DNA of 64,000 nucleotides, taken from Desulfarculus sp. GTDB lineage: Bacteria > Desulfobacterota > Desulfarculia > Desulfarculales > Desulfarculaceae. The position numbers and the translations under genes are program-made. Where the stretch lies: contig JACRDC010000004.1 in the NCBI GenBank assembly GCA_016218705.1, positions 1 through 64,000 of the forward strand. Reading direction: 5' to 3'. The notes under the pieces are model-generated. The model saw nothing but the letters and a program-made list of their open reading frames with translations. It did no database searches and was not told the origin of the DNA. Positions 52,397-56,564 of this stretch are shown here, one piece after another (position 1 is the stretch's first letter; the number at the start of each line of letters is the position of its first letter).

Positions 52397-52485
52397 GTAG
52401 GTTGGGTTAGGGGCGTAGCCCCGTAACCCAACGAGTTCCAATGAGAATGAAGATGTTGGGTATCGCTGTGCTCAGCCCAACCTAC
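52397..52485. repeat. 89-bp palindromic repeat (MITE-like) abutting the TIR operon
   Basis: It starts GTAGGTTGGG and ends CCCAACCTAC, with internal inverted segments (GTTAGGGGC/GCCCCGTAAC and a further GTTGGG). Repeats with these ends are common in bacterial intergenic DNA and are thought to be mobilised in trans. It ends 17 bases before the TIR start codon, so the ribosome site sits just outside it and the promoter must lie within or before it. Confidence 0.75.
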
Positions 52486-52502
52486 GGGACTAGGAGTAAT
52501 TT

Positions 52503-53225
52503 ATGAAGAAATGGGAATATGTGGATTTAGTTGCCTCAATTAATTCGCATGGATTATCAATATCGGAGGAAAAAGAAATTCAGCACGGCAAACAAGTTAC
52601 ATTAGCTGGGGGCACCAAAGCAAATTGGTATACTTCAGGAAAAGTTGTAGTGCAAGGCAAGGATTCAGATGAAAAATCCCTATTAACTAGAGTGGTAAAC
52701 GGTGGCGAATCTATTGCGGCTCCATCTCCGCCTACTATTCAAACGGTCATTTCCGGAGCTACTACCATAAGAGAGCCAAAGGTATTTGTTGTGTACGGCC
52801 ACGACACAAGTGCCCGCGATCAACTTGAGCTTTTGTTGCTGCGTATGAATATTAAGCCTGTAATACTAAGTAACATTGCTCCAGATGGCAAAACAATAAT
52901 TGAAGCGTTAATTGCAAATACAGATGTCCCATATGCCGTTATTCTTTTAACGCCAGATGACGAAGGCCACCTAGCTGGCAAGGTTGAAGAAAAGAAATTT
53001 AGAGCTAGGCAAAACGTTGTGCTGGAAATGGGTATGTTTCTGGCAAAGTTAGGCCGAGAAAAAGTGGCAATACTCCATAGGGGAAGTCTGGAGTTACCTT
53101 CTGATATCAGCGGACTAATTTATATACCATTCAGAGATAGCATACAAGAAACTAAAAATAAGTTAGCAGCTAGCCTGCAAAAAGCTGGGTTTTATATAGA
53201 TATAGAGCATCTATCTGCCGAATGA
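52503..53225 (+). CDS. TIR-domain effector with N-terminal RNase HIII-like (TBP-fold) hybrid-binding module
   Basis: The 240-residue AT-rich protein has two parts. Residues about 1-60 resemble the substrate-binding N-terminal domain of RNase HIII, most clearly ANWYTSGKVVVQGKD (41-54), which matches the (A)xYxSGKVxxQGK signature of that TBP-like fold. Residues about 92-235 are a TIR-like domain of the CBASS Cap12 type: VFVVYGHDTSARDQL, GKTIIEAL (Glu134, candidate catalytic Glu), AVILLTPDDEG, RARQNVVLEMGMFLAKLGRE and LPSDISGLIYIPF. Family members cleave NAD+ when activated. The ribosome site AGGAG is at ideal spacing. The stop overlaps the RNase HI start (ATGATGA). The fusion and the partner suggest a sensor of RNA:DNA hybrids in phage defence; this is inference. 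Confidence 0.85.
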   Translation: MKKWEYVDLVASINSHGLSISEEKEIQHGKQVTLAGGTKANWYTSGKVVVQGKDSDEKSLLTRVVNGGESIAAPSPPTIQTVISGATTIREPKVFVVYGHDTSARDQLELLLLRMNIKPVILSNIAPDGKTIIEALIANTDVPYAVILLTPDDEGHLAGKVEEKKFRARQNVVLEMGMFLAKLGREKVAILHRGSLELPSDISGLIYIPFRDSIQETKNKLAASLQKAGFYIDIEHLSAE

Positions 53226-53725
53226 TGAAACACGTAAAGATCTATACAGATGGTGGTTGCTTGGGCAACCCCGGCAAAGGGGGATATGCGGCTGTCCTTA
53301 TTTACGGTAGGCATAGAAAGGATATTTCTGGTGGCTACGCACTGACAACCAATAATAGAATGGAGTTGATGGCATGCATAAAAGGCCTCGAGGTATTGAA
53401 ATATCAATGCGAAGTTACTATTACAAGTGATTCAAAATATGTAGTTGATGGTATTTCAAAGGGTTGGGCACAAAACTGGAGAAAGAATAAATGGATACGC
53501 AGCAATAAGTTGCGAGCTGAGAATTCTGGTTTGTGGGAAAGACTACTAAAACTATCTCAATACCATAAAGTTAACTTTGTTTGGATTAAGGGTCACAACG
53601 GACATTACGAAAATGAGATATGTGGTAAATTAGCAATAGAAGCTGCTGGGGGAGATGATTTAGCGATTGATGATGGATATATATATGATACTGAAAAACC
53701 ACCATCGATATCTCAACTGACATAA
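53222..53725 (+). CDS. RNase HI-like protein lacking the fourth catalytic carboxylate
   Basis: The 167-residue protein is a full RNase HI: IYTDGGCLGNPGKGGYAA (Asp10), NNRMELMA (Glu48), TSDSKYVVDGI (Asp70) and a basic handle WAQNWRKNKWIRSNK. His125 in KGHNGHYENE is kept, but the position of E. coli Asp134 is Gly135 (ICGKLA for the usual C-D-x-L-A), seen directly as the GGT codon. About 20 extra C-terminal residues are acidic. Loss of this metal ligand should weaken or abolish cleavage while leaving hybrid binding. It is AT-rich and coupled to the TIR gene by overlap, so it is not the housekeeping rnhA. It ends 38 bases before the convergent uvrB end. Confidence 0.88.
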   Translation: MMKHVKIYTDGGCLGNPGKGGYAAVLIYGRHRKDISGGYALTTNNRMELMACIKGLEVLKYQCEVTITSDSKYVVDGISKGWAQNWRKNKWIRSNKLRAENSGLWERLLKLSQYHKVNFVWIKGHNGHYENEICGKLAIEAAGGDDLAIDDGYIYDTEKPPSISQLT

Positions 53726-55844: not shown

Positions 55845-56564
55845 CTAGGAGAAGATGATCTCGCCGTAGTAGTCGGGCAGGTCGTCCCGGAAGCGCTTGG
55901 CGAAGCTCTCGGGAAAGATCACCCGGCTGACCGCTTGCAGGTCGAAGTCCAGGCGGCCGAAGACGCGCCACTCGCGCTCCATGTAGTAGTTGGCCGGGTC
56001 ATCGGCGGCCAAGCCGGCGTCGTAGAACTTGCACAGGCTGAAGAAGTGGAAGACCAGGAAGCTTAGCAGATCGTTGACCTGCTGGTTGCTCAGGCCCGGG
56101 GCCAGGGAGGGCATGTCGCCGTCGCCCATGGTGGGCAGGTTGCGGAACAGGCTTAAGATCATCTGGTGGCGCTGGTCAAAGTGGCTGGCCAGGTCCACCT
56201 GCCGGCCAGGGCTGGTTTCTATCTGGGCCTGCCGGGGCAGATAGAAGACCGGGTTGGCGCCCTTGGCCACCAGAAAGGCCTTCTTGAAGGCCAGGCCGAA
56301 GCGGCTGAACTTGCCCATGTGGATGGCCAGGTCTGGCACCGGGATGTCGGAGAAGCAGACCACGTTGGGTTTGTAGTACTCGTTTTCGCTGAACTTGGAG
56401 GCGTCGGCGTAGGCGGTGTGCTTGGTCTTGTCGGTGCCCAGTTGGCCGCTGCGCAGGATGTTGACCAACAGCTCGTACTGGCGGTCCTCTGCCTCGGGCA
56501 GAGAACGCAGGCCACGCCCCACGAAGTGGGTCAGCTCGTCGGAGACATAGCGTTGCAGGGTCAA
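55845..56564 (-). CDS. AbiGi-like abortive infection protein
   Basis: The 239-residue protein resembles the AbiGi family: [17 protein letters not shown] at the start, then [35 protein letters not shown] and ANPVFYLPR, later [10 protein letters not shown]. AbiGi is the antitoxin-type partner of the AbiG phage-exclusion pair. No AbiGii-like toxin gene follows; the next gene downstream is uvrB. Start is TTG with GGGAGG five bases upstream. Codon use is GC-rich like the host, so it is an old or well-adapted acquisition. Family assignment is from memory of the pattern. Confidence 0.6.

Follow-up and report, generated by a model that had tools for sequence, protein, structure and literature searches.

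In the 64,000-nucleotide stretch of Desulfarculus sp. DNA analysed here (the window), two genes on the forward strand at 52503-53725 encode a TIR protein and a ribonuclease HI (RNase HI), both open reading frames being present as described in an earlier note made from the sequence alone. The first protein carries a TBP-lobe domain ahead of its TIR domain, an architecture referred to below as TBP-TIR. The features of the locus are as follows:

52397..52485, no strand assigned: REP-like palindrome (GTAGGTTGGGTTA...CCCAACCTAC) marking the insert's left edge; folding z = -3.9
52492..52496, + strand: AGGAG, Shine-Dalgarno-like, 6 bases ahead of the ATG of the TIR gene
52503..53225, + strand: TBP-TIR gene of the PADLOC PDC-S35 family, 240 aa; PF10137, E = 3.6e-33; PDLC05006, E = 2.8e-78, residues 8-236
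52503..52712, + strand: N-domain with TBP-lobe fold, residues 1-70; helix, four strands and helix in the AlphaFold model
52713..52778, + strand: low-confidence linker, residues 71-92; pLDDT below 50 at residues 68-90
52779..53135, + strand: CAP12/Pycsar-type TIR domain, residues 93-211; the PF10137 match
53222..53225, + strand: ATGA overlap of 4 bases, read from the sequence, joining the TIR stop codon and the RNase HI start codon
53222..53725, + strand: RNase HI gene, 167 aa; D10, E48 and D70 retained, with Gly135 where E. coli has D134
53624..53626, + strand: GGT codon of Gly135; Asp in all 31 homologues compared

The two genes differ markedly in composition from their surroundings, with GC contents of 0.41 (TIR) and 0.39 (RNase HI) against approximately 0.60-0.70 on both sides and approximately 0.65 for the genome. 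Their codon usage is correlated between the pair (r = 0.80) but not with that of the flanking uvrB and uvrC genes (r = -0.15 to -0.23). No obvious Shine-Dalgarno site precedes the RNase HI gene, and the ATGA overlap, an operon-like arrangement, is compatible with translational coupling. These data bear out the earlier description of two AT-rich, overlapping genes that are unlike their neighbours and have a ribosome site of their own. A search of Rfam around the locus gave no match, and no excess of promoters or terminators was found there.

The insert is flanked by a DUF3089 gene and by uvrB. The REP-like element at its edge occurs once within the window, and a copy (90% over 95 bases) is found in a same-genus genome at L083 3406-3500, on the matching side of the slot adjacent to uvrB. 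In two same-genus genomes the slot beside the uvrB stop codon is filled by other, unrelated AT-rich genes (L083 2801-3415, which has no Pfam match, and L067 281-682). Together with the palindromic edge element in one of these genomes, this marks the uvrB-adjacent site as a variable slot, and the TIR and RNase HI genes look imported. On the opposite side, just upstream of uvrB, the window also contains an AbiGi-like gene (55845-56564, - strand; PF10899, E = 1.5e-11; PADLOC AbiGi, E = 1.3e-9).

The TIR domain scores 114.5 bits against PF10137, above the curated cut-off of 24.7 bits, and the best fold matches of the protein are TIR-STING proteins. Its R169-x-N171-x-x-x-E175 motif aligns with R78, N80 and the catalytic E84 of Sf TIR-STING, such that the catalytic Glu and the NAD-site Arg and Asn are kept, and E175 is invariant in both alignments of relatives (A1 and A2). 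The TIR protein probably destroys NAD. It scores 37 on the NCBI Cap12 equivalog models, for which the cut-off is 450; it has the TBP lobe in place of a STING or SAVED sensor, and the insert contains neither a cyclase (CD-NTase) gene nor a second effector gene. The PADLOC PDC-S35 model PDLC05006 spans nearly its full length, and is also matched by the two closest TIR relatives and by the relatives at L004, L005 and L028. The TIR gene is thus an already listed phage-defence candidate, and the word undescribed, applied in the earlier note to the two-gene system, does not hold for it. A literature search found no paper naming PDC-S35 and no TIR-RNase H defence system.

Since the full-length AlphaFold model of the TIR protein is modest (pLDDT 70.5), claims about the fold of the N-domain rest on a separate N-domain model (mean pLDDT 83.7) and on sequence profiles. 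DUF3378 (PF11858), which we take to be the RNase HIII N-domain, is matched by the single N-domain sequence weakly and under the Pfam cut-off (E = 0.0028), and a search of the PDB with that single sequence returned chance lectin matches alone. Profiles of the N-domain family, searched against 177,635 PDB sequences, place RNase HIII first (E = 0.0023 with 10 members, 0.0013 with 15 members) and TBP next, and the 15-member profile also matches residues 107-159 of LsoA (E = 0.17). This match falls inside the range of the NRD (aa 91-197), the part of RnlA for which binding of RNase HI has been reported (PMC5308261). Foldseek searches with the N-domain model gave the IntS9-IntS11 complex at rank 1, RNase H3 with an RNA/DNA hybrid bound (4py5) at rank 2 and E. 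coli RnlA at rank 4, with TBP within ranks 1-10, all at weak E-values of 0.02 and up and none below 0.001. By profile or fold, the N-domain therefore matches RNase HIII, RnlA and LsoA. The earlier reading of an RNase HIII-like module fused to a CBASS-type TIR, with an RNase HI-like partner (PF00075, E = 3.2e-40), is sustained by these searches, as is its analogy with RnlAB.

As an isolated domain, the N-domain of RNase H3 binds RNA/DNA hybrid exclusively. In the structure of RNase H3 with a hybrid, E27 and G52 recognise 2'-OH groups of the RNA, H28 and Y43 stack against sugars of the DNA strand, S45 and S47 together hold a phosphate of that strand, and a single weak contact comes from R32 (PMC4132731). 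In a profile alignment, the TIR protein has Q27, H28, Q31, Y43, S45, K47 and G52 at these seven hybrid-contact positions. Four of the seven are identical (H28, Y43, S45 and G52), including both DNA-stacking aromatics, while Q27, Q31 and K47 differ. Across 15 members of the N-domain family, G46, Q51 and G52 show no variation, and position 43 always holds an aromatic residue. On this evidence the N-domain looks built to grip RNA:DNA hybrids, and the conserved contact residues, which yield a prediction from sequence, are the strongest new point for hybrid sensing by the TIR protein. The proposal in the earlier note that hybrids or loss of RNase H may act as the trigger is strengthened by the contact residues. 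Of the claims that reach beyond this locus, the one carrying most weight is that TBP-lobe TIRs of the PDC-S35 kind carry an RNase HIII/RnlA-type domain that probably reads hybrids.

The product of the second gene is a full-length match to the NCBI ribonuclease HI equivalog NF001236 (196 bits against a cut-off of 160). Its 167-aa frame is intact and three of the four catalytic acids are kept along with the active-site His, but the DEDD tetrad is incomplete, the fourth Asp being replaced by Gly135. This substitution was unnoticed in the earlier note and is, with the functional anatomy of the TIR protein, what is new here. In the RNase HI family tree its sister clade, drawn from a different family of the phylum, is made up of rnhA genes that occur singly (support 83/88), and its terminal branch is long (0.66 against a median of 0.29). 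Gly135 and the long branch could mean decay of the gene; from the sequence, the substitution fits a role in binding more than in cleaving, but it fits decay equally. Viral contigs searched with this RNase HI as query held no relative. A recent phage origin of the gene was considered and rejected, with no near DNA match in phages and a best phage protein match of 54%.

This RNase HI is the sole E. coli-type RNase HI in the host genome, and none was found in the other genomes of the host family that were searched. Across 63 genomes of its own class, the type occurs in two genomes of other families besides the host. The class has a divergent RNase H instead, which in the host genome is of the RVT_3 type (L021), and the host also has RNase HII. 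A housekeeping rnhA gene in its original place was accordingly rejected as an explanation: the family otherwise has no E. coli-type enzyme, and an RVT_3-type RNase H occurs elsewhere in the host genome in addition to RNase HII. In all four of the other TBP-TIR genomes searched, an E. coli-type RNase HI is encoded elsewhere in the genome; this sample is too small to demonstrate a dependence on RNase HI, and the type is common in any case (163 of 395 genomes in the phylum sample).

The TBP-TIR architecture was found at 59 loci, which reduce to 21 lineages at 80% identity. With flanks of less than 1 kb to approximately 6 kb examined per side, an RNase HI profile matched beside none of the 21 lineages (0/21), the sole match being the window locus itself. 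The two closest TIR relatives (74% and 73% identity) have no RNase HI nearby, and homology to their genes stops at the TIR stop codon. Conversely, no TIR gene was present in the flanks examined around the closest RNase HI relatives. The pair was sought in a scan of genome contigs that gave two TIR relatives, in samples of the phylum (395 genomes), class (369) and order (399), in IMG/VR (7 and 63 loci), and in plasmids and phages (a sample of the plasmid and phage matches, with 5 regions examined), and was not found within the flanks examined. By the earlier note's own test, recurrence of the pairing in other genomes, everything examined speaks against the pair; a conserved two-gene system is not supported, and any claim of a two-gene system has a single locus behind it.

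Most TBP-TIR genes stand alone, among neighbours that are mixed and unrelated, and relatives occur in phages and prophages. At two loci (L004 32-3670 and L005 1-2608) the gene lies between genes for a NOV_C-type protein and a DUF1156-type methyltransferase; the neighbours in L004 match HmaA and HmaB, and L005 has a Schlafen/AlbA_2 gene in between. These two may represent a TIR guest in Hma-type operons. Separately, a TBP-TIR gene is present in an E. coli phage (36 kb record; L023 2875-3636), with near-identical copies in 37 of 5426 complete E. coli genomes, and at L100 846-1385 and L112 the gene stands beside related genes that, by eye, resemble pieces of type I restriction HsdS.

We tentatively favour, at somewhat less than an even chance, a reading of the pair as an imported abortive-infection module in which a TIR NADase, triggered by hybrids and/or RNase HI, is accompanied by its own RNase HI cofactor; its NADase activity, hybrid binding, RNase HI dependence and part in phage defence are inferred. 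The first protein would be the NADase effector, its front domain being one TBP lobe of the kind found in RNase HIII and RnlA. This lobe would dock on RNA:DNA hybrids, such as phage replication primers and R-loops, and/or on RNase HI bound to hybrids, and docking would cluster the TIR domains, such that NAD+ is destroyed and the infected cell is stopped. The overlapping second gene would supply, as cofactor or adaptor, an E. coli-type RNase HI that the host family otherwise lacks, and with Gly in place of Asp134 cleavage would be slower, so that a hybrid would tend to be held and not removed. Precedent comes from RNase LS: in E. coli, the NRD of RnlA is the binding site of RNase HI, which stimulates RnlA and recruits the antitoxin too (PMC5308261), RnlA-type toxins are known TBP-lobe proteins (PMC7221094), and fusions of RNase LS with TBP lobes or RNase H were earlier interpreted as a means of targeting hybrids (PMC3710099). 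Should TBP-lobe TIRs share the requirement of RnlA for RNase HI, a linked copy would be needed in this host but not in hosts that possess a normal RNase HI.

Support for the cofactor model is drawn from the profile and fold matches of the N-domain, the four of seven identical contacts, the TIR catalytic residues, the gene overlap and the foreign codon usage, as well as from the occurrence of relatives in phages and prophages, the position of L004 and L005 beside defence genes, and the distribution of RNase HI. It is weakened by the single sighting of the pair, by homology that ends at the TIR stop codon, by possible decay of the RNase HI gene and by the weak match of the N-domain. The main rival, a serious contender that we nevertheless hold to be short of even, is that the TIR protein makes up a whole defence by itself, as PADLOC lists PDC-S35, possibly triggered by hybrids, and that the RNase HI is a passenger joined by chance within the imported fragment and now degenerating. 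The lack of an adjacent RNase HI in the other TBP-TIR lineages argues for a passenger, as do the stand-alone habit of most TBP-TIR genes, the nearest relatives of the RNase HI being single rnhA genes with no TIR gene adjacent in the flanks examined, and the loss of a catalytic Asp on a long branch. Less easily accommodated are the exact ATGA overlap, a codon usage common to both genes, an intact frame with three of four catalytic acids, and an N-domain resembling the NRD of RnlA, for which binding of RNase HI has been reported.

Two further explanations are each improbable. In one, the RNase HI serves as an antidote that clears hybrids and keeps the TIR protein quiet until phage infection overwhelms or inhibits it. 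The gene order and overlap resemble those of toxin-antidote pairs, and three catalytic acids and the active-site His are kept; however, with Gly in place of the fourth metal-binding Asp, Mg-dependent cleavage is probably reduced, although E. coli D134 mutants are described as activated by Mn2+ (Tsunaka 2005, as cited in PMC9719913), and the relatives of the TIR protein manage with no linked RNase HI. The plain antidote role that was among those offered in the earlier note is therefore weakened by the Asp-to-Gly change. In the other, the TIR protein is not a hybrid-triggered defence NADase: its TBP lobe would serve only for dimerisation or for binding a different ligand, or else the TIR domain would make a signal molecule for another effector. 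TBP-like lobes serve as protein-binding modules as well, the IntS9-IntS11 complex heads the fold matches, and PF10137 members with quite different front domains exist; this explanation sits poorly with the conservation of nucleic-acid contact residues across the subfamily and with an insert in which no second effector gene was found.

Returning to the cofactor reading, its broadest form would hold that TBP-lobe TIRs are widespread, RNase HI-dependent, hybrid-sensing NADases, the TIR counterpart of RnlA, most of which use the RNase HI of their host, and that the catalytically altered RNase HI found here, in a lineage lacking the E. coli type, is a dedicated sensor subunit; in this generality we consider it doubtful. 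If the reading is right, PDC-S35, a family that is listed but unexplained, would gain a concrete trigger in the RNA:DNA hybrid and/or RNase HI, and TIR NADases and RnlA/LsoA would be joined through one common sensor lobe. It would also provide a second system in which to study why RNase HI is required by E. coli RnlA in the first place.

The locus can be compared with several known systems. The TIR protein belongs to PDC-S35, whose S label presumably means solitary, that is, standing alone as a single gene; at the window, in contrast, the RNase HI gene overlaps it by 4 bases. Sf TIR-STING, Cap12 and PycTIR share its PF10137 TIR with the R-x-N-x-x-x-E NAD site, whereas the window protein is without a STING or cyclic-nucleotide sensor and its operon without a cyclase gene. 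With the RNase HIII N-domain (DUF3378) it has in common the fold and four of the seven hybrid-contact residues, but here a TIR domain follows in place of a type 2 RNase H catalytic domain. Its partner, like canonical RNase HI (rnhA), is full-length and above the NCBI equivalog cut-off, and differs in having Gly for the fourth Asp, in being apparently imported and in lying in a TIR operon. In RnlA and LsoA of RNase LS, a TBP-lobe domain, of the NRD kind that the TIR front domain resembles, is likewise carried by the effector, which is toxic, and RNase HI acts as a regulator in E. coli. There the effector is a HEPN RNase paired with the RnlB antitoxin, whereas the window system has a TIR effector, no RnlB-like gene and only RNase HI linked to it; and while E. 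coli RnlA uses an RNase HI from elsewhere on the chromosome, the window system encodes one within its operon.
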